Positions 1-15,457 are shown, counted from the stretch's first letter. The stretch: DNA of 64,000 nt from Planctomycetia bacterium (GCA_015075745.1 JABTTW010000001.1:1860001-1924000), one strand, 5' to 3'. The notes: generated by a model from the sequence alone, not told the origin. Program-made: numbers and translations.

Positions 1-3000
1 CAACCCGGCCGGGCCCAAGTACGCCTTTGGTCCCATTGACCGACATGATTCGATCGACCAGCATCAAGGGCTCATCAGGCAGTCGAACGCGTGTGCGATA
101 GCCGTCGATGATTTCAAATTTCGGGCCAAGCACATTGGCCACCTTTCCACGGGCAAACTCCAAACACAATTCGCGGGAGTAGGCCGGCGCGGCGGCACGA
201 CGAAGAGAGACTGGCGGAACCGACTGGCGAGGCGATATCGGCATCTCGTTGTCGTTGACGATTTCCGAAAGTACTGCTGCGCCGTCGACCTTACCGACTG
301 CGCTTTCCAACAACTCGGCCTGCATCGTAAGTACTGATGCCAATTCCCTGGATGCGCTTTCGCTGAATCGCAGATATGCATCATGCGCCGCCGTTGTTCG
401 CGCCGCGGTCGCAAGCACAGCATCTCTCAGCATGACGAATTCATCCCCTCCACCGGGCACCGATGGCATGAACACATCCGCCGATTCATCAATGCCTTCG
501 CCTGCAGAATCTTCCCGTGACGGCCGCGCGGGCAATGTCTCCCCTAAAGCCATCGAACGCTGCGGAGTCGGCAAAGGCGGGGGTAATTGCTCAAGCCGCG
601 TTGATATCTCGATCACGGCATGCCCCGGGAGCCGCGACGAAGCCGCATCGTCAAGGGCGTCTCGATACAATCCCGCCAGATTCACCGGCACGCGCTGGGC
701 GATTAATCCGGCGAGCAGTGCCATCAGCGAATGGAGTTCCTCATCCGCTCTACCTGAGGCCGATGCCGCAAAATACGATCTTCCTTCGAGGATCCGGTCG
801 ATCATGCGCGTACACGACGCCTGCGGGCCGACCTCGACAAACAGTCGCACACCATCGGCATACGCCTGTCGGATGACCGCCGGAAAATCAAAACCATGGA
901 TCGCCTGGGCCGTGATGGATTCAGCCGCGGTCTCCTTAGAGACGTTGTAGGCCTTTCCGGCGGCAGCGCTATAGAAGCGAATGCCATCGGGCGGACTCGT
1001 TGGGAGAAGATGAAGCTGGCGATACGCCTGCTCAACTTCATTCACAGCCTCGAAGTGCACCGTCGGAACGCCATCGATCGTAATGGCGCGACTGCCGGCA
1101 CGCCGTGCCGCCTCATGAACATCGCGTCGCAATCCGCCGACCACGCATTCTGTCGGTGTATTCACGATCAACAGTCGGGCGTGATGAAGGCCGACCAGCG
1201 CCTGTCGCACAACTTCGACAGGTTTCGCAACGACCGCGGCGCACCACTCCGAAGCTGCATCAGGCGGCAATCTCCATGCGCTGTAGATCGCGTTGCGTGG
1301 CCCGGCAAGCTGCGACTTGAAGAGCGGCGAATCGCTCATCCGGCGAAACATTTCATCGCGATCGGGCCACGCCCGAAGCGCGAAGAGGCCGACCGACTCG
1401 CCGAGGCTGTAGCCGATCGTTGCACGGGGGCGCAGACCGGCTAATTGAAGAATATCGCTGGCCAGGACGCCGAAGGAAACCTGTCCGAATATGAGCCGCT
1501 CGACATCGTGAGCGACCGCGTGCATTGCCTCCTGCCGCCAGCCATTGGGCCAATCGCAGCGCCAGGGCATCAGTTGTTGCGGCGAGAAGTGGCCGGCAAG
1601 CCGATCCGATTGAGCATCCAGCGCATCGACCACCTGCGGGAAGTGCAGTGCGAGCTCACGCCCCATGCCGAGGTAGTGATTGCCGGAACCGGGGAAAACG
1701 AATGCAAGGTCACCCTTGCCGCCGAGTGGATCCGGGAAAAAGAAAACGCCATCCTGACCGCGAATGGCCTCGGTCGGCTTATCACGTAGCGACTTTTGGG
1801 CAGAGTCGATTGACCGTACGAGCGAAACTGAACTGTCGGCGACGATCGCGACGGCGAGGCGTTTCGAGGTATCGGCAGAGTGTTCACGTAACCACCTTGC
1901 GGCAAGGCTGCCGAGGCCATCACTGGCCGTCTCGGCAAATCCGCGAAGCTCGGTGAGACCTCGAACAAGCTGGGCGACGTCACTCGCCTCGACGGCGAAG
2001 GTGGCCGTCGGCATGTCAAGCACGGGCGCGCGAGAGCGGGTGGATAATGGCTCCTGCTCCTCAAGGATCACGCAAGCGCTGTTGCCGTCGCTCGTCGTCG
2101 CGCTGACCAACGCTCGCCGGGGCCCATCGACTCGATCGCGTAACCAATACTGCGGCTCGACCGGGAAATGGAATGAGTCCGACTGATTGTGCAATGGCGA
2201 TAGGCTCGCCCGCGTTCCCGGTAATGTCGCGTGATGGAGGCATAGTGCGGCTCGAATAAGCGATGCCATGCCAGTGGCAGCCCCACAATGACCGACGCAT
2301 AGAGTGGACGAGCTAAGCGCGACGAGTTGAGGGACTTCGGAGAAGGCCGCCTGAATGTCCGGCGAAGTCTCGCTACTTCCCGCGAACTCAACAAGGCCGA
2401 CGGAGGCGGCTTTGACATCGGCATCCTCGCAGGCTCGAAGCAGCGCGGCCGACCCCTTGACAGCATCTCCCGAGGCATGACCGAGACCGCGGATTACGGC
2501 GTAGATTCTATCTTCATCACGCAGGGCATCGGACAATCGCTTGACGACCAGCGCAGCCGCGCCATCCCCAACATGCTGATCGCCATTGCCGGCCGACGTC
2601 ATTGCAGCACGGCTGTCGGTCGCCAGGTCGATTGCGCCGACAACGACGGCGTCCATCTCCCGCGCCCGCAGAGCCCGAACGGCGACTTCAAGTCCCTTGA
2701 GTCCGGATGTCTCCTCGCAGGAAACCGCGAAGCTCGGTCCGCCCAGTTGAAACTCACAAGCAATGCGACTGGCGATGATCCCGCCCAGGGCCCCGAGCGT
2801 GCGAGTAGCGTTGAGTGCTGGACAAATAGCATCCTGCATTGCCGTGACCCAGTCAGCCTCCTGTTGCGGGGAAAGCTCGATGCCGAGCCTTCGCGCCCAT
2901 CGGCGGGCTTGTGACGGCAGCCACCATCGCAGGTGGAAGTTTGTCGTGTTGAAGTCGAGGGACATGCCGATCAGCACACCCACATTCGGACGGCGCTCGC

Positions 3001-4663
3001 GTAGAGGCATGCCCGCGTCCATCATCGCCTCGGCGACGACATCCAACATGAGAAGCTGTTGAGGAAGAATCTCCGGCAGTTCCATCGGCGGGATGCGAAA
3101 TCGCCCCGAAACGACCTTCAACTGATCAATTTCGGTTCGCTGGAGCGCACCGCCGAACGCGACCCGCCGGAACTCGGCAAGCGAAGCGGCATCGCCGAAG
3201 TGCGCGCCCATGCCGACGATCGCAATTGGTTCAGTCGGGTCCTCTGTTGTCGGGGCGATGATGATCGTTGACGGTAAGCGGCTCCTCTCAGGCTCCACAC
3301 TCGCCAGGTACTCCTCAACCAGGACATGGGCATTGATACCGCCGAACCCGAAGGCGCTGATCGCGGCGCGGCGCGGTGTCTGCCTGTCGCGAGGCGCCCA
3401 TGGCTCCGGGGCGACCTGCACTCTAAACGGGCTGCCCTTCAGAGGAATCGCTCCACCATGGTCTCGATAATTCGCCGACGGCGGCAGCGTCTCATGCCGC
3501 ATGGCGAGCAGTACCTTGATCAAACCTGCTGCGCCTGCGCCCGTGAGGAGATGGCCGATCATCGACTTGACCGATCCGATCGCGCACTGGCCGGACCTGG
3601 CGCTAATCTCCTCCCAAAGCGTCCTCATGCTCTGAATCTCAACCGCGTCGCCGGTAGGAGTGCCCGTACCATGACACTCGATGAGATCGACGCTGTCCGG
3701 CGTCCAACCCGCTGCCTCATAGGCTTGGCGCATGGCCCGAAGCTGCCCCTCGCTGTCCGGAGCAAGAAGGCTTCCGCCGATGTCGTTCGATAGACCGATG
3801 CCGCGAATGACCCCGTGGATCTCGTCGCCGGCGGCAACCGCGTCATCGAGGCGCTTCAGAACAATGACCCCCGCGCCCTCGCCGACAACGAGTCCATCGC
3901 AGGAGGCATCGAACGGAGCGCATCGGCCGCTTGGGGAGAGTGCGCGTAGCTGAGTGAACCCCATCTGCGTATAAAGACACTCCGGACGCGAAACACCACC
4001 GGCGAGCATGGCGTCGGCTCGCCCGCTTCGTAGCTCATCACACGCGAGCTTCACAGCGTATAAAGAAGATGCGCACGCGGCATCAAGCGTGTACGTCCCG
4101 CCGCCCAACCCCAGGGCCTGTGCCAGCAGAGCAGCCGGCAATCCAACAACGCGTCCGTTCATCTGGTGCGTGACCGTCGACTTTTCCCGCTCTCTTGCCG
4201 AAACAATGCCCGCATGCTCAAAGAGCCGTCGCTCAAAGTCCGCACCCAATGTTTCTCGCGTAATGGCCGATGATGCGTCGGTCGGCAGCGCAATGGCCGC
4301 GAGGATCACACCTATGCGATCGTGATCGACTCCGTCCATCCGGGCATGGCGGTAGGCGTCACGCCCAGCATGGAGGACAAAGTGATAGAGCGGATCAAGC
4401 TGCGAGAGCAAATGCCTGTCGATTTCCAGACCGGCAGGATCGAGCCGGAAATCCTCAACAAAGCACCCGCGGACAGAAAGGACTTTGTCCGCCGATGGCG
4501 CATCGGCGATTGCGCGATGCGGTTCAATGATCCACCGACCAGGCGGAACCTCGCGCGTCATGTCGCGGGCCTGCGCAATGTTGTTCCAAAAGGCGCGCAG
4601 GTCAGCCGCGCCGGGGAAGACGCCGCCCATGCCGACGATGGCGATCGGACAATCACGTTTCAT
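1..4663 (-). CDS. pfaC: PfaC-like PUFA/secondary-lipid synthase subunit, KS-CLF-AT-DH (partial, runs off left edge)
   Basis: The frame is open from the ATG at 4663 to the window edge, giving 1,554 visible codons with the C-terminus missing. Domains in order are a ketosynthase (about residues 5-455; C197 in DAACASSL, H331 in CHGTGTPTG, H371 in KSMIGH), a chain-length-factor-like KS (about 470-900) and a PfaB-type acyltransferase (about 980-1300; S1086 in GYSLGES). A predicted helical stretch follows (about 1410-1460), then the start of a FabA-like hotdog dehydratase (RLPDEPLMLVDRI near 1535). In the second KS the catalytic Cys position appears to be Glu (E651, SCEETS), which fits a CLF. An AT inside PfaC is known from myxobacterial Pfa3 and thraustochytrid OrfB. 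The start lies 10 bp after the pfaA stop, with a GAAGG ribosome site. The protein would elongate and dehydrate chains together with PfaA and PfaD in the cytoplasm. Confidence 0.9.
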   Translation of the reverse strand, partial: MKRDCPIAIVGMGGVFPGAADLRAFWNNIAQARDMTREVPPGRWIIEPHRAIADAPSADKVLSVRGCFVEDFRLDPAGLEIDRHLLSQLDPLYHFVLHAGRDAYRHARMDGVDHDRIGVILAAIALPTDASSAITRETLGADFERRLFEHAGIVSAREREKSTVTHQMNGRVVGLPAALLAQALGLGGGTYTLDAACASSLYAVKLACDELRSGRADAMLAGGVSRPECLYTQMGFTQLRALSPSGRCAPFDASCDGLVVGEGAGVIVLKRLDDAVAAGDEIHGVIRGIGLSNDIGGSLLAPDSEGQLRAMRQAYEAAGWTPDSVDLIECHGTGTPTGDAVEIQSMRTLWEEISARSGQCAIGSVKSMIGHLLTGAGAAGLIKVLLAMRHETLPPSANYRDHGGAIPLKGSPFRVQVAPEPWAPRDRQTPRRAAISAFGFGGINAHVLVEEYLASVEPERSRLPSTIIIAPTTEDPTEPIAIVGMGAHFGDAASLAEFRRVAFGGALQRTEIDQLKVVSGRFRIPPMELPEILPQQLLMLDVVAEAMMDAGMPLRERRPNVGVLIGMSLDFNTTNFHLRWWLPSQARRWARRLGIELSPQQEADWVTAMQDAICPALNATRTLGALGGIIASRIACEFQLGGPSFAVSCEETSGLKGLEVAVRALRAREMDAVVVGAIDLATDSRAAMTSAGNGDQHVGDGAAALVVKRLSDALRDEDRIYAVIRGLGHASGDAVKGSAALLRACEDADVKAASVGLVEFAGSSETSPDIQAAFSEVPQLVALSSSTLCVGHCGAATGMASLIRAALCLHHATLPGTRASLSPLHNQSDSFHFPVEPQYWLRDRVDGPRRALVSATTSDGNSACVILEEQEPLSTRSRAPVLDMPTATFAVEASDVAQLVRGLTELRGFAETASDGLGSLAARWLREHSADTSKRLAVAIVADSSVSLVRSIDSAQKSLRDKPTEAIRGQDGVFFFPDPLGGKGDLAFVFPGSGNHYLGMGRELALHFPQVVDALDAQSDRLAGHFSPQQLMPWRCDWPNGWRQEAMHAVAHDVERLIFGQVSFGVLASDILQLAGLRPRATIGYSLGESVGLFALRAWPDRDEMFRRMSDSPLFKSQLAGPRNAIYSAWRLPPDAASEWCAAVVAKPVEVVRQALVGLHHARLLIVNTPTECVVGGLRRDVHEAARRAGSRAITIDGVPTVHFEAVNEVEQAYRQLHLLPTSPPDGIRFYSAAAGKAYNVSKETAAESITAQAIHGFDFPAVIRQAYADGVRLFVEVGPQASCTRMIDRILEGRSYFAASASGRADEELHSLMALLAGLIAQRVPVNLAGLYRDALDDAASSRLPGHAVIEISTRLEQLPPPLPTPQRSMALGETLPARPSREDSAGEGIDESADVFMPSVPGGGDEFVMLRDAVLATAARTTAAHDAYLRFSESASRELASVLTMQAELLESAVGKVDGAAVLSEIVNDNEMPISPRQSVPPVSLRRAAAPAYSRELCLEFARGKVANVLGPKFEIIDGYRTRVRLPDEPLMLVDRIMSVNGTKGVLGPGRV

Positions 4664-4673
4664 GCGGCGACCT

Positions 4674-7600
4674 TCAGGTGGCGGCGGACAATCGGGAAGG
4701 CGGACGGAAGGCATCCCAAAGGAGCGGATCTACCGTGCATTCGTAACCGCTGATTTCAGCGACGAGCGCGCCGGCCGCACTGACGAATGCAATGTCAGAA
4801 GTCATCTTCGCCCGCGAGGACTCGCGAACCTGGAGAATGCACGTTACCCCATCCATCGGCAGCGAAGGGCAATACAACCGAAGGCGTCCGAAGTGAGTCG
4901 GCAGCGACGGCGCGCCCAGCTCTTCGCAGCACCATAGGATCGCCAATTGAAACGCGGCATCGAGAATCAAAGGATCGGCGATCCATGCGCCGCGCAACGG
5001 CTCGGACATCCAATCGCGCGGAGCGCCTGCGGACACGACTCGACCGACGATGCCTCGGCTGCTGAGCCCGCGAATCTCACGAATGCCGCGCAGGTGCGGC
5101 CCGTGGAAGAGATTTTCCTCATATGCAGAATCGACATTACGCGGATAGGCGCGGTCGATGACGGCGTGTTCCTCGGGCGCGGCAGGAGCAGACAACCTTT
5201 GAGCCGCCAGGAGTATTTTTGAATGGGCGTGTATGGCCGGCAGACCATCGTTGCGGACAGATCGCAATTCGGCATCGACAATGAAGGCGTCGCCATCTCG
5301 ACGAGAGCGAGATACCGCAAGCATCACACCCAGCGTACCCTCACGGTCAAGAGCCGCGGCCTTGAGGACTCTCAAGTCGTCGATACCACGCACAACGAGG
5401 CCCGGATTTGCATGCAGCGCCGCATGGGCCATCCACTCGACCATCATCGCAACAGGCAATACCGGCCGGCCGGCCAGCAAGTGCGATCGGAGAAACGGAA
5501 ACCGCTCTGCATCGAGATCGAGTTGAAATGCAATCGAAAGGTCCCCGGTCGGAGCGGCCGGCGCGGCGACGGGCTCAACATGGATGCTTTTTCGTCGACT
5601 CAGCGGTGCGCCGACGACGACCTCGACATTGCCCGACTCGACGAGCGTCTCGGTCACCATCGCTTCCGCGCCGGCGGCAAGCGGAATCAATTCGACGCCC
5701 TGCCGAACAAACTCGCGACGCAATGCCGGCGTCACCATGCCACCGTCCCACGGGCCCCAGTTGATCGATGTCACACGGCATCGAGACAGCTCACGACTCA
5801 TTCGCCGTGCAATCTTGTTCAGAGATTCGTTCGACATGGCATAGTCGCTCTGGCCGACGTTGCCGTATCGGGCACTTACCGAAGAGAAAAGGACGACCTG
5901 CCGCAATTCGTCGAGATCGAGCTCGGCGAGCAGATTTCGAAGGCCGACGATCTTGGTGTCAAAGACTTTCGCAAACTGTTCGGCGGTTTTGTCCTTGATG
6001 AGCCGATCTTCCAGCGTCCCGGCGGCGTAAATCAGGCCGCGGACAGGGCCGTGCTGCGCAATAATGCGCTGCGTTACCTCGCGAAGCGCCTCGGCATCTC
6101 GCACATCCACCGCCTCGTAAGCGACGCTTGCGCCGGCCTCGGCGATGCGATCAATGTTCTTGCGAATCTCTCGAGCGGCCATTCGCGCACTGAACTCAGC
6201 CTGCAATTCGGCGGGCGTCGGTCGCTGGCCTGCGAATGCGTGCTTCAGAATCGCCTGCTTAATGTCGGACTCGCTGGTCAGCGGAGCAAGCCAGGACGGC
6301 TCCTCCTCGGGTACGGGCGAACGACCGAGCAGAATCAGCCTCGGCGCACACTGGCGGGCCAGGGCAATCACCGCCTCGGCCGTCACGCCTCGAGCGCCGC
6401 CGGTCACGACGACAACATCATCGGCGCAGAGGGCAGGCTGTCCGATCTTCGCGGATTCCTGCTGGACCTCGAATTCCAGCCGTCGCCCGGACCCCAGGCC
6501 AACTTCCGTCGGACCGTCGGCGGCCAACTCACGCAGTATCGCCGAAGCAGCCGCGGGCAGGTCAGTCCAATCAGGCGAGACATCAATCGCGCGACAGCAC
6601 ACGTTCGGCCACTCCAGCGCTGCGGTTTTGGTCAGGCCGGCGAGCCCACCGATCACAGGATCGAAGTCGCTCCCGACAAGACCCATCGCGCCGTCAAGAC
6701 GAGTAATGGTGGCGAATACGGCGCGTCCCGTTTTCGCTGCGCCGGTGAGATCGGCGCTGACAAGCCTGGCGGCCATCAAGGCCTCACGCAGGAAAACGTC
6801 GGACGATTCTCGGCCCGCCATCGCACCGGACGTGGCAATCGGCGAAACAATAATCAATCCGACAATGCCGGTGCGCTTCGTGCGCCCTGATATTTCAGTG
6901 AGATTGACCAATCGCGCGGCGATGCCGGCGGAAATACATTCATCGATGATCGCGGCGGATAACCCCTCGCCGTCGTCGGTGACCCAGATTTCACCGTCCG
7001 AGGCGATATTCAGCGGGCGATCCTGCGGCGGCTGCGTCTCGACGGCGATCAGAACACCCCGCTTAAGCAATGCCAAATTCTGTGGCTCTGCTTTGATTTC
7101 CCGTGGTGCGACCGACACGCTCGAAGCCTGCTCACGCGATGGTGCGATCGCGGGCGCCGCTGGTGACTGCGAAAGGTAATAATCGACAACCTGCCGGAGC
7201 GTTCTCAGGCTGCCCATGAACTCCGGCTTCACCGGCGGCAGGTCAGGCGTCTGCGCCTCAACGCCGGCAAGAATCTCGACGCGCTTGATCGAGTCGATAC
7301 CGAGATCCGCTTCCATGTCCATGTCGAGATTGAGCATGTCGGGAGGATATCCCGTGCGCTCGGCAACAACGCTCAGGAGTGTTTGACCGAATGCATCGGC
7401 GTTCTGAGTGGATGTCGCGGCCGCGGGTCCGGCACTCGGCGCAATCGGCTGCTTCGGCGATTCTGTCGGTTGAGGCGAGGGCGTCAGCGGTATATCCGCC
7501 GCGCCGCCGGCCATGAAGTCAACAATATGACCGAGCGTACGCAAACTGCCCATATGTTCGGGCTTGATGGTGGGAAGGCCCGGCAACCGTTCCTCAATGG

Positions 7601-10600
7601 CCGAGATGATCTCCACTCGCTTAATGGAATCGATGCCTAAGTCGGCCTCGATGTCCATTTCCAGGGTGATCATCTCCGATGGATACCCGGTCTTTTCGCA
7701 CACGATCTCTTGAACAATCGGTTCTATGCGAGATCGCGCGTCACCCTGAACACTAGCGGGCGCCTTGGCCGCGGGCACGGACTCAACGGAAGAGATTGGT
7801 TGAGCCTTCGGCTTGGGAGACTCGACGATCGGCGCGGCCTGAGTTTGGCGAACAGGCGGCATCTGATGGGCCGGCGGTGCTGCGACCGCGATTGGCTTTT
7901 CGGCCTCCACGGGCGGCAGCGACGGCGACTGCTGGTAAACAGGTTGAGAACGATTCAACGAGTTCGATATAAGTCGATGCTGACTTTCGAGAAGCTGCTG
8001 AAAGGCCCGATGGGCTTGCTCCTGAGTCGCGAGAAACTTCTCGTGAGCTGCGGCGGTCTGCTGTTGCAGGGACTGCATCGAGCGAAGCCCCTCCTGCATG
8101 ACGCGCAGCGCATCAGTAAGGACCGGAGATACCGACGGGACACTCGCAGACTGATCTATCTCGGACCGACTCGGGCCTGGCGATGCGGGGGGCATATCGG
8201 AGGTTTCTGACATTTTCGCACTCTTTGAAGCTTGTTCAATCCTGGCCGGCCGAACAGGAACGGAAGCCGGCGGAGATCGTTTGGTCGTTTCGCTTTTTTC
8301 CGGCAACTCTGTCGCCGGCTTCGGCGAACGGTAGTTCGCGCCGACGAGCGGCACCATCATCTTCTGCTTGCGAGGCTCCCTGGCGGCCGCCTCCCATTGA
8401 GTTAAGTCAACTTCATGTCCGGCCGCGGCAAGTTGCGCGACCAATCGTCCGAGGTCGGAGATTCCGCATTTTCGCCCCGCACTGGCATCCATGCTGATCG
8501 CGGCGTGCTGCCTGTCTTTTAAGATCGAACCGACAAGGCCGGTGAGGATTGGCTTGGGCCCCACCTCCAGGAATGTCCGAACGCCGGAATCATACAGCGA
8601 CTCGATTTGGCCGACAAAATTGACGGGAGAAAGCAATTGGCCCGCCAGAAGTGACTTTGCCTCTTCTGGGTCGCCCGGATACGGCGCGGCGGACGAGCCG
8701 GCAATCACCGGAATTTGCGGACCGGCGAATGCAGAGGCTTCGATTGCACTTCCCATTGATTCAGCCGCATCCGCCATCAACGGGCTGTGGAACGCGCCGG
8801 ATACTTGCAACTTGGTGCTGGCGAATCCAAGCGCCTTGCATGCTTCGGCAGCGCGATCAATTGCCTCGTGCGAACCCGAAAGGACGCACTGGCTCGGGGA
8901 GTTGAGATTGGCAAGCACCACATCGAGGCGGCTTTCGGCGATGAGATGGTCAAGATCGGCCGGCGAAGCCTTCACAGCAAGCATAGCGCCGCGATCTTCT
9001 CCGTCACCCGCCATCAGCCGACCGCGAAGCCGAGAAAGGCCCATCAGCGTCCGTTCGTCGTAAGCGCCGGCGACGGCAAGCGCGACAAGTTCACCGTAGC
9101 TATGGCCGCAAACGGTGTCGGGACGAACACCGAAGCGACCGAGGACTTTCGACATGCCCCACTCAATCGCTGCGAGTGCGGGCTGAGCGATGTCAGTTCG
9201 GCGAAGTCGATCTTCCTGTGCCTGGCGAGCCTCTTCAGTAAAAGCCGAGGTTGGATAGATGGCGTCAGAAACAGAGTGAACGGGACCGTCAAATCCCTGA
9301 TCGGTCTCTGTGAGGGCCGCGCGTAACTCTGGAAAAGCGCACGCCATTCTTCGGGCCATGCCGACGTATTGGCTGCCCTGGCCGGGGAAAAGAAACGCCA
9401 GCTTTCCTTCGGCGGGCGTTGCTGAATAATAAATGTTGGGTAGCGTCCAGCGGTCGGCGCCCGTTGCCAGACGATCGGTTGCCTTTCCCAGGATAACAGA
9501 CAAATCGTCGCCGTGTTCAACGATGATGAGCAAACGGTGAGTATCTTCGCGACAGAAATCGCGGCGAGATTCACATGCCATCCAAGCCAGGTGCGTGCGA
9601 TCGAATTCCGGCTCGACGACAGTCTTACTCCACACGGCGAGTTGACTCACCAACGAATCGCGTGAATCAGCGGACAGCGCGATGATCTCCACGGAGCCGT
9701 CCCACGCAGGAACCTCCTGCGCTACGCCATGTTCTTCGAGGACCACATGAAAATTGCTGCCACCGAAGCCGAATGAACTGACCCCGGCGCGACGCGGCGT
9801 GCTGTGGTCGGTCAACCACGGTCGAAGTTCGGTATTCAAATAGAACGGACTGTCGCCAATTCCCATTTTGGGATTCGGCTCGCTGATCTTCAGGGTCGGC
9901 GGGAAACTTGCGTGATAGATCGCAAGGGCCGCTTTGACCATTCCGGCCGCGCCGGCGGCGGCCTTGGTGTGGCCAATTTGTGACTTCACAGAACCCAATG
10001 CGCACCATGCACCGTCACCGCGCGCTTCTCTAAAAACCGTGCGCAAGGCATCGAACTCAGTGGCATCGCCGACGGTGGTGCCGGTTCCGTGTGCCTCAAG
10101 CAGTGAAACGCTTTGCGGCGAGATTCCGGCAAGCTCATAAGCGTTACGAAGGCAGCGCGCCTGTCCCGCCGCGTGCGGTGCATAAATGCTCTGCGAACGG
10201 CCGTCGCTCGAAGTGCCCATGCCTCGAATCACGGCATAGACGCGGTCGCCGTCTCGCTCGGCATCGGCGAGGCGCTTGAGAACAACCATGCCGATGCCTT
10301 CGCCGAGAACCGTGCCGTCCGCGTTGGCGCTGAATGGCCGCGCATCGCCCGTTGGCGACAGGGCGGGCGTCTTCGAGAAGCACATATGCATGAAGATGTC
10401 GTTGAGCGTATCCGCTCCACCGGACAGGATCATGTCGGCCCGGCCAGTGGCGAGCTCCATCATGGCGAGATGCACCGCGCCGAGCGAGCTCGCGCACGCC
10501 GCATCAATGACGCAGTTCGTGCCTCGCAGGTTCAACCGGTTGGCAATTCGGCCCGCGACGACATTGCCGAGTAGTCCGGGAAACGAATTTTCCTGCCAGG

Positions 10601-11159
10601 AGACATAGCCTTCCGAAATACGGCGGATGACTTCCTCGGCGGTCTTCGGGTCCACGCCGGCTTCGGCAAGCGACTTTCGCCACAGGGGATGACCGAGCCG
10701 CGCGCCGAGGGAAATGACCAGCTCTTGCGTGCCGGTGATGCCAAGAATGACGCCAGCACGCTCACGGTCAAACTCGCGTGAATCGTCGTATCCAGCGTCG
10801 GCGAGGGCCATCTTGGCCACATGCAGCGCGAGTAGTTGAGTCGTGTCCGTTGCTTCAAGAATACTCGGTGGGATGCCGAATTCGGTGGGGTCAAACTGTA
10901 CCGGCGAAAGATAGCCGCCGCGAGAGCAATAAGTATGATCCGGCCGCTTAGGGTCGGCGTCGAAATAGTCCGCTGGCGACCAGTGCGTCGGCGGTACTTC
11001 GGTAATACCATCCTCACCTCGGGCAAGGGTTCGCCAGAACTCTTTAAGATTCGCCGCGCCGGGAAAAACACATCCCATGCCCACGATGGCAATGGGACAC
11101 TGCCCCGGACCCGCGCCTTGTCCTTTGGTACTCAATCTCAGGCCTTTTTGGTTGATCAA
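4674..11159 (-). CDS. pfaA: PfaA-like PUFA/secondary-lipid synthase subunit, KS-AT-ACP-ACP-KR-DH
   Basis: This is a 2,161-residue iterative type I synthase. The ketosynthase spans about 20-475 (C222 in DAACASSL, H357 in AHGTGT, H397 in KSQIGH). The malonyl acyltransferase spans about 585-890 (FPGQGSQYVG, S687 in GHSYGE). After a Pro-rich linker and a helical stretch (1015-1065) come two acyl carrier domains with phosphopantetheine serines S1178 and S1290, both in LGIDSIKR. The ketoreductase (about 1360-1850) shows TGGARGVT and Y1773 in SDYAMSN. A C-terminal dehydratase-like hotdog has H1893 in the SHLLAGRPVLP motif. Marine PfaA proteins usually carry more carrier domains. No ATG fits the N-terminus; a TTG at 11159 with an upstream GGCGGA is the best start, and TTG at 11135 is an alternative. 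The gene begins 28 bp after the pfaD stop. Confidence 0.93.
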   Translation of the reverse strand: MINQKGLRLSTKGQGAGPGQCPIAIVGMGCVFPGAANLKEFWRTLARGEDGITEVPPTHWSPADYFDADPKRPDHTYCSRGGYLSPVQFDPTEFGIPPSILEATDTTQLLALHVAKMALADAGYDDSREFDRERAGVILGITGTQELVISLGARLGHPLWRKSLAEAGVDPKTAEEVIRRISEGYVSWQENSFPGLLGNVVAGRIANRLNLRGTNCVIDAACASSLGAVHLAMMELATGRADMILSGGADTLNDIFMHMCFSKTPALSPTGDARPFSANADGTVLGEGIGMVVLKRLADAERDGDRVYAVIRGMGTSSDGRSQSIYAPHAAGQARCLRNAYELAGISPQSVSLLEAHGTGTTVGDATEFDALRTVFREARGDGAWCALGSVKSQIGHTKAAAGAAGMVKAALAIYHASFPPTLKISEPNPKMGIGDSPFYLNTELRPWLTDHSTPRRAGVSSFGFGGSNFHVVLEEHGVAQEVPAWDGSVEIIALSADSRDSLVSQLAVWSKTVVEPEFDRTHLAWMACESRRDFCREDTHRLLIIVEHGDDLSVILGKATDRLATGADRWTLPNIYYSATPAEGKLAFLFPGQGSQYVGMARRMACAFPELRAALTETDQGFDGPVHSVSDAIYPTSAFTEEARQAQEDRLRRTDIAQPALAAIEWGMSKVLGRFGVRPDTVCGHSYGELVALAVAGAYDERTLMGLSRLRGRLMAGDGEDRGAMLAVKASPADLDHLIAESRLDVVLANLNSPSQCVLSGSHEAIDRAAEACKALGFASTKLQVSGAFHSPLMADAAESMGSAIEASAFAGPQIPVIAGSSAAPYPGDPEEAKSLLAGQLLSPVNFVGQIESLYDSGVRTFLEVGPKPILTGLVGSILKDRQHAAISMDASAGRKCGISDLGRLVAQLAAAGHEVDLTQWEAAAREPRKQKMMVPLVGANYRSPKPATELPEKSETTKRSPPASVPVRPARIEQASKSAKMSETSDMPPASPGPSRSEIDQSASVPSVSPVLTDALRVMQEGLRSMQSLQQQTAAAHEKFLATQEQAHRAFQQLLESQHRLISNSLNRSQPVYQQSPSLPPVEAEKPIAVAAPPAHQMPPVRQTQAAPIVESPKPKAQPISSVESVPAAKAPASVQGDARSRIEPIVQEIVCEKTGYPSEMITLEMDIEADLGIDSIKRVEIISAIEERLPGLPTIKPEHMGSLRTLGHIVDFMAGGAADIPLTPSPQPTESPKQPIAPSAGPAAATSTQNADAFGQTLLSVVAERTGYPPDMLNLDMDMEADLGIDSIKRVEILAGVEAQTPDLPPVKPEFMGSLRTLRQVVDYYLSQSPAAPAIAPSREQASSVSVAPREIKAEPQNLALLKRGVLIAVETQPPQDRPLNIASDGEIWVTDDGEGLSAAIIDECISAGIAARLVNLTEISGRTKRTGIVGLIIVSPIATSGAMAGRESSDVFLREALMAARLVSADLTGAAKTGRAVFATITRLDGAMGLVGSDFDPVIGGLAGLTKTAALEWPNVCCRAIDVSPDWTDLPAAASAILRELAADGPTEVGLGSGRRLEFEVQQESAKIGQPALCADDVVVVTGGARGVTAEAVIALARQCAPRLILLGRSPVPEEEPSWLAPLTSESDIKQAILKHAFAGQRPTPAELQAEFSARMAAREIRKNIDRIAEAGASVAYEAVDVRDAEALREVTQRIIAQHGPVRGLIYAAGTLEDRLIKDKTAEQFAKVFDTKIVGLRNLLAELDLDELRQVVLFSSVSARYGNVGQSDYAMSNESLNKIARRMSRELSRCRVTSINWGPWDGGMVTPALRREFVRQGVELIPLAAGAEAMVTETLVESGNVEVVVGAPLSRRKSIHVEPVAAPAAPTGDLSIAFQLDLDAERFPFLRSHLLAGRPVLPVAMMVEWMAHAALHANPGLVVRGIDDLRVLKAAALDREGTLGVMLAVSRSRRDGDAFIVDAELRSVRNDGLPAIHAHSKILLAAQRLSAPAAPEEHAVIDRAYPRNVDSAYEENLFHGPHLRGIREIRGLSSRGIVGRVVSAGAPRDWMSEPLRGAWIADPLILDAAFQLAILWCCEELGAPSLPTHFGRLRLYCPSLPMDGVTCILQVRESSRAKMTSDIAFVSAAGALVAEISGYECTVDPLLWDAFRPPSRLSAAT

Positions 11160-11187
11160 CTTGGATCCGCCGCGGCGGAGTGGATGT

Positions 11188-13071
11188 CTATATCAGTTTT
11201 AAAATCGCGTCGCGCTCAATCGGCCGGAAGCCGGTCGCCTCGGGAGCCAATTCAACGCCCTGACCGCGGAGCCAGTTTACTCGAAACTGGACAGCTGCGC
11301 CGAGCAGGATGTTCATGGCTACCGTAACCACGCTTCGGTTCTCCGGCTTGGCTAGAAAAGTGCCCCGAGTCCATTCATTGAAGGCCCCCATCGCCGGGCC
11401 GCACCATATCTGGTAATCCGCCTTGCGGGACGCCTCGCCCTTGTTGGCCCAGTCCGACGAGCGACCGAGATACGACCTGAAAACCAGCGCCATCTTGTGC
11501 TTCGGCTCGCGCTGGGCGCGGGCGATCTGACTCGGGTCACGCTCCTCGAAGAAGCGGCGAGTCTCGTCCCATGCCTGTTCAAGCGAGCAGCGGAAGAAGT
11601 CTCGTTCCAGCGGGGACCGTTGCGAAGGCGGCAATGCCTCCAGGCTGTCGAATTCGCGGTAGAGGTCATACAGCTTGCGAGCGCGGACAGCGAAGAGCGT
11701 GCCCCACTTCAGTACCTGTACTTTCACTCCCATCTCGAACATGTCCGCGGCGGGGGCCATGGCGATGTCGGCCGGACCCGCCTGTGCAAGCATCTCCCGG
11801 ACGGTCTGTGAAGTACCGGCCTCAAGACACCCCTGATTGACTGAACCGGTCATCACGTAGGCCGCCCCCATTGAGAAGGCCGCAACGGCGGACGCAGGCG
11901 TGGAAATACCGCCTGCCGCGCCGACACGCAGCGGCTCGGCGTACTGATACTTCGCCTGCACTTCATCTCGCAGGGCAATCATCGATGGCAAAAGCGAAAT
12001 GGCCGGACGATTGTCGGTGTGCCCGCCGGAGTCCGCCTCGACGGTAAGGTCCGGGGCGACAGGCACATGTTCGGCGAGCTTGGCCTGCGCCTCGGTGATG
12101 AATCCGGACTGCACGAGCTGTGCAAGCAGGTTCGCGGGCGGCGGCATCATGAACTTTCGGGCAACTTCGGCGCGCGAGACTTTGGCGATCACCGTGTTAG
12201 GGCAAACAACGCGCCCATCCGGTCGTTGATGAATGCCCGCGAGGCGATATCGAATCAGCGGAAGCGTCAAATCGAGATAGGCCGAAGCATCGACAAGCTT
12301 GACGCCGCGGCGCAGGTAAAGATCGACGACGCCGGATTCCAAGTCCGGCTCGTTCGGACTATGGATGAGATTGATGCCAAATGGCGAACTGCCGAGATTG
12401 CGATGGAGTCGATCAATCGCCTGCTCAACGCGGGCAATCGGCAGACCGGCCGAGCCGAAGAATCCAAGCATGCCGGCGCGGCTCATCGCCTCGACGACTT
12501 CCTCTGAACCGATGCCGTTGGCCATGGCGCCGGCCAGGTACGCGTACTTAAGTCCGTATGCATTTCGAAACGCCGCGTCACCAAGTTGTGAAGGATGAAG
12601 GGCCGGCGCAAACGCGACCAACGGATGGCAGGGCTCGACATGCAGCGAACCCTCTCCGATGAGGCTCCGTCCGCCGACGCCGACCGCCTGACCTCCGCGG
12701 TGACGAACAATGTGCAACGGCTCCGACACTTTCAAAAGTGCCGCATGGATGGCATCTGATCCCGCCTGGGGTCCCCTTTCACCGGGCAGCCACCAGCCGA
12801 TTTGTCCAGCCGTGCCACCATCAACAACGCCTGTCGGATCCGCCTCGTCGCCGGAATGAATCGATCTCGCGCCGCCGTCGAGGGGCAGCCGCCGTGCCGC
12901 CTTCACGCCCAGATCGAGCAGCAGGTTGCACCCCGCGAAGAAGGTGCCGACCGCCAGCTTGGCCGTCGTCTTCGCGCCGGCCGCTGCCGCGTCAATGGCC
13001 GACCGACCGCCATCGAGGGCGGAACTGGCCAACGAGCCAACCGTGTGTCTGGGCTCACCGTGTTCGCTCAT
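11188..13071 (-). CDS. pfaD: PfaD-family FMN-dependent enoyl reductase
   Basis: The protein has 627 residues with the 2-nitropropane-dioxygenase-like TIM-barrel sequence typical of PfaD, for example FAPALHPSQLGD, YAYLAGAMANGI and the C-terminal run of conserved Trp/Asn-rich blocks. PfaD acts in trans as the enoyl reductase of PUFA-type synthases, reducing selected double bonds. An upstream in-frame start at 13191 would overlap ispH by more than 100 bases. The ATG at 13071 lies two bases after the ispH stop and is preferred. The first roughly 75 residues (Ala/Gly-rich helix, Asp/Gly-rich linker) appear to extend beyond the usual PfaD length of about 540; their role is unknown. The position directly ahead of pfaA and pfaC supports one operon. 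Confidence 0.92.
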   Translation of the reverse strand: MSEHGEPRHTVGSLASSALDGGRSAIDAAAAGAKTTAKLAVGTFFAGCNLLLDLGVKAARRLPLDGGARSIHSGDEADPTGVVDGGTAGQIGWWLPGERGPQAGSDAIHAALLKVSEPLHIVRHRGGQAVGVGGRSLIGEGSLHVEPCHPLVAFAPALHPSQLGDAAFRNAYGLKYAYLAGAMANGIGSEEVVEAMSRAGMLGFFGSAGLPIARVEQAIDRLHRNLGSSPFGINLIHSPNEPDLESGVVDLYLRRGVKLVDASAYLDLTLPLIRYRLAGIHQRPDGRVVCPNTVIAKVSRAEVARKFMMPPPANLLAQLVQSGFITEAQAKLAEHVPVAPDLTVEADSGGHTDNRPAISLLPSMIALRDEVQAKYQYAEPLRVGAAGGISTPASAVAAFSMGAAYVMTGSVNQGCLEAGTSQTVREMLAQAGPADIAMAPAADMFEMGVKVQVLKWGTLFAVRARKLYDLYREFDSLEALPPSQRSPLERDFFRCSLEQAWDETRRFFEERDPSQIARAQREPKHKMALVFRSYLGRSSDWANKGEASRKADYQIWCGPAMGAFNEWTRGTFLAKPENRSVVTVAMNILLGAAVQFRVNWLRGQGVELAPEATGFRPIERDAILKLI

Positions 13072-13073
13072 AC

Positions 13074-14060
13074 TTACGCCCCCGTCGGCCTCAGCACGGA
13101 GAGCGCGACATCGCTCGCCCCGCGATCCGCAATCGCCTGCTTCAGCGAAACCGGTATCTGGAAGACGGTACTCTCCTCCGCCGTCGTGCAATACTCAATT
13201 TCCTTTGCCCCTTGTTCGAGGAGCTTGCCAACCACGGCCTGTACGACTCCCTCAGGAGTACTGGCTCCCGCCGTCACACCGACGACGTCGACACCTTCCA
13301 GCCATTGCAACTGAATCTCACCGACTCCGTCGATCAGGAATCCACGTACGCCGCGCGCCTGAGCGACTTCAACAAGCCTTGCCGCGTTGCTCGAATTGCG
13401 CGATCCGACGACCAAGAGCAGCTTCATGCCGCGACGGGCCATCTCCTTGACGGCGTCCTGCCTGTTTTGCGTCGCATAACAGATGTCATCCGTCGGCGGC
13501 AATTCGAGACTTGGAAATCGCCGGCGCAGCGCCGCAAGCACTCCGGCGGTATCGTCAACTCCCAACGTGGTCTGCGTCAGCACCATGAGCTTCTTGCCGG
13601 CCGGAAGCGTGACCGTCTGCGCCTGGGACTCATTCTCCACCAGCGTAATATGTTCGGCCGACTGACCTAGCGTGCCGATGACTTCGTCGTGACCCTTGTG
13701 GCCGATGAGAATAATGTGATAGCCCTGCTTGACGAATCGATGCACTTCGAGATGCACCTTCGTCACCAGCGGGCATGTCGCGTCGATGACCTGCAACTGC
13801 CGCCGCTTCGATTCTTCGAACACCGTGGGGGAAACACCGTGAGCGCTGAGAATCGTCACCGCCCCGGTCGGCACCTCACCCACTTCCTGTACGAAGACCG
13901 CGCCTTTGGATCGAAGGTCCGAAACGACGTGGCTGTTGTGAACGATTTCTCGGCGCACATAGACCGGCGGGCCGAAGACTTCGAGCGCCAAGTCGACGAT
14001 CTTTACCGCTCGATCAACGCCGGCACAGAATCCCCTGGGATTGGCAAGTAGAACTTTCAT
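13074..14060 (-). CDS. ispH: 4-hydroxy-3-methylbut-2-enyl diphosphate reductase
   Basis: The protein has 328 residues and carries out the last step of the MEP isoprenoid pathway, converting HMBPP to IPP and DMAPP with a [4Fe-4S] cluster. The three cluster ligands C12 (NPRGFCAGVDRA), C96 (DATCPLV) and C194 (DDICYATQNRQ) are present at nearly the E. coli spacing. The GSRNSSNA substrate loop and the histidines in HNSHVV and SAHGV are also visible. The ATG at 14060 gives the canonical MKVLLANPRG start; a TTG one codon upstream is less likely. The stop is two bases before pfaD, so ispH heads the pfa transcription unit. ispD, another MEP gene, lies 14 kb away. Confidence 0.96.
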   Translation of the reverse strand: MKVLLANPRGFCAGVDRAVKIVDLALEVFGPPVYVRREIVHNSHVVSDLRSKGAVFVQEVGEVPTGAVTILSAHGVSPTVFEESKRRQLQVIDATCPLVTKVHLEVHRFVKQGYHIILIGHKGHDEVIGTLGQSAEHITLVENESQAQTVTLPAGKKLMVLTQTTLGVDDTAGVLAALRRRFPSLELPPTDDICYATQNRQDAVKEMARRGMKLLLVVGSRNSSNAARLVEVAQARGVRGFLIDGVGEIQLQWLEGVDVVGVTAGASTPEGVVQAVVGKLLEQGAKEIEYCTTAEESTVFQIPVSLKQAIADRGASDVALSVLRPTGA

Positions 14061-14305: not shown

Positions 14306-15457
14306 TTGAATCCAATACCTCGTCTTTCAGTCCCGTTCCTGCTCCAAACAGCGATCGTGACGACATCGCTATTCTTATTCCTTCCCGGACCCGCTTCCGC
14401 GGGCCCCAGCTTCATGGGGTTGGGCGACATTCCCGGCGGCCTCAATTCGAATTTTGCCAATGCCATCTCCGCTGATGGTTCAACTGTTGTGGGCGCGGCA
14501 TTGACGACCGAAGGCTTCAGCGCTTTTCGTTGGACCTCGGCAACGGGCATGGTGAATCTCGGAGATTTGCCGGACGGCGCCCACGAAGGCACCGCGACGG
14601 CCGTCTCCGCCGATGGCTCGGTCGTCGTCGGCACGGGCGCATCTCTCGAAGGCCGCGAGGCCTTTCGATGGACTCAAAGTGAAGGACTCGTCGGTCTCGG
14701 CGATTTTCCCGGATTCGATTTCGACAGCATGGCCAACGGTGTGTCCGCTGACGGGTCGGTCATCGTCGGCGCCGCGACAGGCTTTTTTCTGCCCACGGCC
14801 TTTCGATGGACCGCCGGCATGGGGCTTGTCGATCTTGGCGATCTACCCGGCAATTCCCCATTTTCCGCAGCTCAGGCCGTTTCAGACGACGGCTCAATTG
14901 TGGTCGGGCAGAGCATCTCCAACCTCGGCAATGAAGCATTTGTTTGGACACAGTTAGATGGAATGCTGCCGCTGGGCGATCTTGCCGGCGGTCCGCATTT
15001 TAGCGCGGCCGTCGATCTGTCCGCCAACGGCGCAGTCATCGTCGGTTTCGGCATGACGGACCAGGGAGAAGAAGCATTCCGCTGGACCCAGGGCACCGGC
15101 CTTGTCGGCCTGGGCGACTTGCCCGGCGGCGCGATGCAGAGTTCCGCCAGGGCCGTTTCCGCGGACGGCTCCGTCGTGGTCGGAACTTCAAAATCCGCAC
15201 TGGGCGATGAAGCATTTCTTTGGACGCAGGGCGGGGGAATGCGAAGCCTTATGGAGATCCTGGTAAGTAACTTGAACCTCGACTTGGCGGGATGGACGCT
15301 CAGCGAGGCGCTCGACATCTCGGCCGATGGGACCACGATCGTCGGGCGCGGCGTCAACCCCTCGGGGAATACCGAAGCGTGGATCGCGGTCATTCCCGAA
15401 CCGGCGACGGGCATTCTCTTGCTGATCGGCTTCGCGACCATGATCCGTCGGCAGTGA
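14306..15457 (+). CDS. Secreted HAF-repeat protein with PEP-CTERM-type tail
   Basis: The protein has 383 residues. An N-terminal signal peptide ends near PGPASAGP. Seven copies of a repeat of about 45-50 residues follow, each with a variant of VSADGSVVVG and most with an EAFRWTQ-like and a GLGDLPGG-like segment. This is the HAF repeat pattern, expected to form a beta-rich repeat or propeller. The C-terminus has a PEP-CTERM-like sorting signal: IPEP, a hydrophobic stretch, then RRQ. The protein is therefore probably exported and processed by an exosortase system. The start codon is TTG, eight bases after a strong GGAGG ribosome site. No exosortase gene is seen here, and the repeat function is unknown. 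Confidence 0.88.
   Translation: MNPIPRLSVPFLLQTAIVTTSLFLFLPGPASAGPSFMGLGDIPGGLNSNFANAISADGSTVVGAALTTEGFSAFRWTSATGMVNLGDLPDGAHEGTATAVSADGSVVVGTGASLEGREAFRWTQSEGLVGLGDFPGFDFDSMANGVSADGSVIVGAATGFFLPTAFRWTAGMGLVDLGDLPGNSPFSAAQAVSDDGSIVVGQSISNLGNEAFVWTQLDGMLPLGDLAGGPHFSAAVDLSANGAVIVGFGMTDQGEEAFRWTQGTGLVGLGDLPGGAMQSSARAVSADGSVVVGTSKSALGDEAFLWTQGGGMRSLMEILVSNLNLDLAGWTLSEALDISADGTTIVGRGVNPSGNTEAWIAVIPEPATGILLLIGFATMIRRQ

Follow-up and report, generated by a model that had tools for sequence, protein, structure and literature searches.

An ispH-led pfa operon of a Planctomycetia bacterium and its probable tie to polyunsaturated hydrocarbon synthesis

The operon and its genes

The window, by which we mean the whole stretch of 64,000 nucleotides that was analysed (G000:C1:1860001-1924000), belongs to a planctomycete genome of 5.0 Mb that is 97% complete. 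Its first 14,060 positions are occupied by four genes on the minus strand, ispH, pfaD, pfaA and pfaC, which follow each other in this order as a single operon (Table 1). Start and stop positions as well as family models agree with the four genes given in a preliminary description of this DNA, and pfaD is indeed the first of the pfa genes. The intergenic gaps are 2 nt (ispH/pfaD), 28 nt (pfaD/pfaA) and 10 nt (pfaA/pfaC). The ispH gene starts with the ATG at 14060 and its stop codon ends at 13074, pfaD starts with the ATG at 13071, and pfaA starts with a TTG at 11159 and ends at 4674. The start of pfaC is most likely the ATG at 4663, and the protein has up to 2311 aa if it is counted from an upstream ATG at 4714.

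Regarding the flanks, the preliminary description had advised reading to the left of the window for the rest of pfaC. The gene runs 2.2 kb beyond the left edge and ends at position 1857779 of the genome, and the next gene, which is on the plus strand, encodes a di-haem cytochrome c peroxidase. On the right side a gene for a HAF-repeat protein (window 14306-15457, plus strand) diverges from the operon. Both flanking genes are on the opposite strand and therefore the operon consists here of exactly ispH, pfaD, pfaA and pfaC, without any ole, tailoring or other partner gene beside pfa in this genome.

Table 1. Features of the operon (window positions) and of the oleBC-oleD genes (genome positions)
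Feature	Position	Strand	Evidence
ispH (4-hydroxy-3-methylbut-2-enyl diphosphate reductase), first gene of the operon	13074..14060	-	PF02401, 311 bits; NCBIfam PRK01045 models
pfaD / pfa1, flavin enoyl reductase with FabD-type helical insert	11188..13071	-	TIGR02814
pfaA / pfa2, KS-MAT-ACP-ACP-KR-PS-DH, 2161 aa	4674..11159	-	TIGR02813; Pfam domains
PfaA ketosynthase	9720..11108	-	DAACASS, EAHGTGT, VKSQIGH present; PfaA-KS clade in tree
PfaA malonyl transferase	8490..9404	-	GHSYG, AFHS
PfaA two acyl carrier proteins	7185..7715	-	LGIDSI twice
PfaA ketoreductase	5745..6413	-	GGARG, S-Y-N
PfaA PKS-type dehydratase	4734..5537	-	HxxxGxxxxP, DAAFQ
pfaC / pfa3, 5' part, KS-CLF-AT-(4 FabA hotdogs)	1..4663	-	full gene L007:12779-19714:-
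PfaC ketosynthase	3293..4648	-	groups with PfaC-type KS of PDB 6riw, SH-aLRT 100; phmmer to 6riw E 1e-122
PfaC chain length factor	2000..3241	-	active Cys to Glu as in 6riw (VSCEETS / VSAEENS)
PfaC PfaB-like acyltransferase, proposed off-loading domain	590..1762	-	GYSLGE; TIGR02816 87.5 bits, below cut-off 144
OleB-OleC fusion (one 857-aa frame), then OleD	C1:1957237-1960802 (L329:14237-17802)	-	found by reading about 0.9 Mb of the genome

PfaA reached 1555 bits with the model TIGR02813, whose cut-off is 1010, and PfaD reached 640 bits with TIGR02814, whose cut-off is 449. PfaD is 55-56% identical to the solved PfaD proteins of PDB 6lkc and 4yx6, and it carries an N-terminal extension of around 110 aa (window 12750-13071) which has no Pfam match and is conserved only in the family of the window. 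All the reading frames of the operon are open and every catalytic motif checked is intact: the Cys-His-His residues of the ketosynthases (KS), the serines of the malonyl transferase (MAT) and the acyltransferase (AT), the S-Y-N residues of the ketoreductase (KR), the His and Asp of the PS-DH and the serines of the acyl carrier proteins (ACPs). The two ACPs, the dehydratase (DH) at the C-terminus of PfaA and the AT inside PfaC, all of them noted in the preliminary description, were found again, the first as two LGIDSI motifs, the second as a domain of the PKS type and the third by its GYSLGE motif. PfaC contains furthermore four FabA hotdogs, of which the second and the fourth carry a His/Glu dyad (HFVDDMVMPGTLMYE and HFYQDPVWPGSLGLE respectively), whereas the first and the third gave no match to this motif, as expected for pseudo-DH/DH pairs. 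The protein ends after the fourth hotdog, and AGPAT and thioesterase domains are absent from it.

Assignment to the Pfa synthases

We built a tree of 61 KS domains, in which the PfaC-type KSs, including that of 6riw, which we take to be the KS-CLF of Moritella marina, formed one clade (SH-aLRT 100) and the PfaA-type KSs a separate one (90). The KSs of ars (phenolic lipid) systems and one Streptomyces KS were placed beside the PfaA-KS clade, with the ars-type KSs in a clade of their own, and the trans-AT, type II and FabF sequences lay away from both Pfa clades. This tree holds no marine PfaA KS, and the KS of 6riw and, in the reductase tree, the solved PfaD sequences stand in for it. In the enoyl reductase (ER) tree the PfaD of the window grouped with its taxonomic order within the Pfa reductases that are not marine, at a distance from both 6lkc/4yx6 and the DfnA-type reductases of trans-AT systems. 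Both trees are quick searches with one kind of support each.

These trees rule out an ordinary or trans-AT polyketide synthase (PKS). The preliminary description had named a position of the KSs within ordinary PKSs as the observation that would speak against it, and they fall in the Pfa clades. The trans-AT PKSs with a PfaD-like ER (DfnA) do share the ER family and the FabD helical insert, with 46% identity, but the MAT and AT of the window are in cis, in PfaA and PfaC, and its KS and ER sequences lie outside the trans-AT branches. Of the elements of a Pfa synthase we found a PfaA with KS, MAT, tandem ACP and KR, a PfaC with KS, a Cys-less chain length factor (CLF) and FabA-like dehydratases, a PfaD, and the corresponding KS phylogeny. 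By its predicted domains, then, the operon is an iterative PUFA-type (Pfa) secondary-lipid synthase, and the Pfa-type identity already proposed is borne out by the family models, the KS tree and the ER tree.

We also considered that the cluster might have decayed or be silent, or that an ordinary PKS had been mistaken for a Pfa synthase. A scan of the operon for promoters and terminators gave no promoter-like consensus upstream and no terminator signal, and the former could be taken as a sign of silence, although it says little for planctomycetes. Against it, the frames are open, the motifs are intact, pfaC was found in 15 of the 17 genomes of the window's family and both trees exclude an ordinary PKS, so we regard this explanation as extremely improbable. 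Judged from sequence, the operon is real, intact and conserved. Searches of viral and phage collections gave no match.

Distribution and comparison with known systems

Of 294 genomes of the phylum, 44 had a pfaD above the cut-off, and so had 30 of the 298 that were sampled from the class. The planctomycetes that we looked at have, as a rule, the order pfaD-pfaA-pfaC. Among the relatives of PfaA two ACPs are the commonest number (39/81) and a dehydratase at the C-terminus was seen in 77/81, so neither feature is a novelty, and the AT lies inside PfaC in 31 of 34 cases.

The preliminary description had stressed that order and architecture differ from marine pfaABCDE. The difference as such holds: with respect to marine pfaABCDE, the AT of the window is fused into PfaC, pfaD comes first, there are two ACPs versus 4-6, PfaE is missing and the PfaD sits on a separate branch of the ER tree. 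Nevertheless, it is not novel. In the myxobacterial pfa1-pfa2-pfa3 clusters an ER is followed by KS-MAT-ACPn-KR-PS-DH and then by KS-CLF-AT-FabA dehydratases, with the phosphopantetheinyl transferase (PPTase) elsewhere (PMC8436480, PMC6731297), and pfaBC fusions were already described by Shulse & Allen (PMC3098273). Given these precedents and the counts among the relatives, the differences from the marine type are features of a known terrestrial arrangement.

The operon shares with the myxobacterial clusters (Aetherobacter, Minicystis rosea) the gene order ER/PfaA/PfaC and the AT in PfaC. However, its PfaC lacks the terminal AGPAT and the extra PKS-type DH4, it is led by ispH, and only an AcpS-type PPTase was found in the genome. 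Since there is no AGPAT at the end of PfaC, we rejected the AGPAT-terminated myxobacterial subtype and filed the operon simply as a Pfa synthase. As read from their sequences, two other PfaC homologues, one in a planctomycete (G052, L092) and one on a plasmid of Azospirillum lipoferum 4B (L196), close with a stretch resembling a PKS-type dehydratase and an AGPAT-like acyltransferase, which is the myxobacterial form.

The pfaBC fusion is also shared with Type I of Shulse & Allen (Geobacter, Gemmata) and related types, and a Geobacteraceae (Geomonas) sequence fell in the same PfaA and PfaC clades as the KSs of the window. An ispH leader is not mentioned in the parts of their text that we consulted (PMC3098273).

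The ispH gene at the head of the operon

The leading ispH is the single copy of this gene in the whole genome. It stands directly before pfaD in 11 of the 13 family genomes where both genes were found, and it also precedes pfaD in two further families of the order (L078, L079, L082, L083 and L081). In the genome of the last locus (G368) ispH and pfaD are still adjoining, with pfaA-pfaC on another contig, so that the ispH-pfaD junction outlived the split of the cluster.

According to gene names read from the sequences, in the relatives of the family the operon lies between ispH and dapF-ispF-cysS-ruvCAB. The latter are housekeeping genes and therefore not tailoring partners, and this neighbourhood argues for a stable vertical inheritance of the operon. 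In the genome of the window ispF is 0.75 Mb away from the operon, which means that the right half of the neighbourhood has been rearranged.

The leading ispH might have a functional meaning, if the co-transcription of the sole ispH with a polyene synthase served to co-regulate the supply of isoprenoids and polyunsaturated lipids or to combine both in one membrane lipid. We hold this to be quite doubtful, and a literature search found no description of such an isoprenoid coupling for any Pfa system. The conserved ispH-pfaD junction poses in any case a simple question about the regulation of these synthases.

The ole genes

All the members of the OleABCD pathway (OleA, OleB, OleC and OleD) were detected in the genome of the window. 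Among its four KAS III-type proteins, the one at C1:1496679-1497716 is OleA: phmmer gave E 4e-68 to the 3row/3s21/4kti/5vxh set (annotated as 3-oxoacyl-ACP synthase III), which is presumably OleA of Xanthomonas campestris, versus 1.5e-25 for the next KAS III, that is, 42 orders of magnitude. It scored 483 bits against NF006720, and the motif published for OleA, EPxx[AS]x(14,18)DxxNACL (PMC7158056), is present in it. The fused oleBC and oleD lie 33 kb to the right of the window. OleC and OleD matched their NCBIfam equivalog models over the full length but below the cut-off (670/900 and 421/580 bits respectively). A fused oleBC is known elsewhere, in an oleA-oleBC-oleD operon (PMC7158056). In this genome oleA stands alone at around 460 kb from oleBC-oleD, and neither is linked to pfa.

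Across the 298 genomes of the class, an orthologous OleA (around 55% identity or more) was present in 30 of the 30 genomes with pfaD versus 1 of the 268 without it (Fisher p 2e-40, kinship ignored). An OleA-like match was found in 18 of these 268 genomes; 17 of the matches had around 43-47% identity, and the three of them that we put in a tree formed a separate clade, whereas the remaining one (G514) was a pfa-type OleA in a fragmented assembly. The sampled members of the window's family without pfa (G402, G426) also lack OleA. Furthermore, the presence or absence of pfa and OleA varies jointly inside four families (f1, f94, f95 and f97), which indicates, with no species-tree correction, that the co-occurrence is not one shared event.

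The two sets of genes are also linked physically. We found oleA directly behind pfaC in nine genomes of the class (G420, G384, G311, G443, G456, G480, G220, G538, G482) and in six of other planctomycete classes (G056, G133, G171, G025, G045, G163), and oleB, oleC and oleD come next in G538, G482, G420, G384, G220 and G056. In the window's own family most of the genomes looked at have oleA away from pfa, G480 retaining it behind pfaC, and in the OleA tree the OleA of the window falls in a family clade among the pfa-linked OleAs.

The likely product

In Pfa synthases the DH domains of the FabA type catalyse dehydration and isomerisation, which gives cis double bonds, PS-DH and ER account for the saturated steps, and the AT is able to hydrolyse acyl-ACP, acting as a thioesterase (PMC9702510). 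In Shewanella the Pfa synthase supplies OleA with a chain that is predicted to be 16:4, and OleBCD lead to a 31:9 hydrocarbon (PMC6463001). The pfaABCDE and oleABCD genes of Shewanella/Photobacterium hold the same enzyme activities as the set described here, including the passage of the Pfa acyl chain to OleA. Regarding the Type I clusters, including a planctomycete one, Shulse & Allen suggested that they feed olefin synthesis (PMC3098273), and the co-occurrence and linkage reported above turn this suggestion into a strong comparative case for the present group.

The product is thus probably a long polyunsaturated hydrocarbon similar to hentriacontanonaene, made from Pfa chains that OleA joins head-to-head. 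PfaA and PfaC would condense malonyl units on the two ACPs of PfaA, the KS-CLF pair of PfaC influencing the chain length, and KR and PKS-type DH of PfaA, FabA-type DH of PfaC and the ER PfaD would build the acyl chain and its several cis double bonds. The polyunsaturated acyl-ACP would most likely be taken by OleA, which would join two chains head-to-head, and the OleBC fusion and OleD would convert the beta-keto acid into a long polyunsaturated olefin (31:9 kind). The AT of PfaC would probably offer a second exit, as free fatty acid. We infer that the Pfa enzymes are active in this bacterium and that OleA draws here on their acyl chains, and likewise the chain length, the number of double bonds and the off-loading by the AT. 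Three observations weigh against this reading: in the window's genome oleA and oleBC-oleD lie apart from pfa and from each other, OleC and OleD stay below their equivalog cut-offs, and the one PPTase found is of the AcpS type.

The alternative is that the synthase makes a membrane PUFA (C18-C22) which the AT of PfaC frees for phospholipids, with OleA working on FAS II chains and co-occurring merely as a membrane trait. A complete Pfa synthase is present, its AT could act as the thioesterase mentioned above, and the same architecture leads to DHA, EPA or arachidonic acid in Aetherobacter and Minicystis (PMC8436480, PMC6731297). Nevertheless, we consider it unlikely: the strict co-occurrence of pfa and oleA together with the pfaC-oleA adjacency in several classes suggests a shared substrate, and PfaC has here no AGPAT, the domain by which myxobacteria transfer PUFA to lysophosphatidate, although the planctomycete homologue L092 has an AGPAT-like end. 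Another lipid or polyketide unrelated to Ole, such as a glycolipid alkyl chain, a phenolic lipid or a hybrid polyketide, seems very improbable. Heterocyst glycolipid chains and phenolic lipids are indeed products of homologous clusters (PMC3098273), but the glycolipid type is without FabA-type DH, versus the four FabA hotdogs and two His/Glu dyads found here, and clusters of the phenolic-lipid type come with type III PKS partners, none of which lies near this operon, and their ars-type KSs are a separate clade.

The preliminary description had considered the product not predictable from sequence, a hydrocarbon, a PUFA or another lipid. This was too pessimistic, since the co-occurrence and linkage of oleABCD favour the hydrocarbon among the three. 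Most environmental Pfa clusters are without a known product, and of the PUFA KS domains in metagenomes more than 92% lie outside the known products (PMC10308959). The pfa-ole tie changes "product unknown" into a specific and testable prediction for a whole branch of the Planctomycetota, and polyunsaturated long-chain hydrocarbons would here be a possibly overlooked source of biogenic olefins. What is added is this prediction of the product, as gene order and architecture were already known.

Phosphopantetheinyl transferase and other genes of the genome

Marine Pfa systems have a dedicated PfaE. In this genome we found no dedicated PfaE-type PPTase, the only PF01648 protein being one of the AcpS type (C1:2307076-2307369, L110), and a single PF01648 protein is also the state of 22 of 25 planctomycetes checked, most of them with pfa. 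Either AcpS serves the ACPs of the Pfa synthase or a divergent PPTase was missed. The class assignment does not depend strictly on PfaE, because the PPTase gene may lie elsewhere or another enzyme may take its place. That these synthases apparently rely on one AcpS raises a simple question about their activation.

Two paralogous KAS III-like proteins (C1:128127 and C1:3211309; L113 and L114) are distinct from both FabH and OleA. Elsewhere in the genome (L008:6215-10315, around C1:2706214-2710315) a pair of type II ketosynthases lies together with a pair of FabA-like dehydratases, a separate set which resembles those for aryl polyenes or other type II secondary fatty acids.
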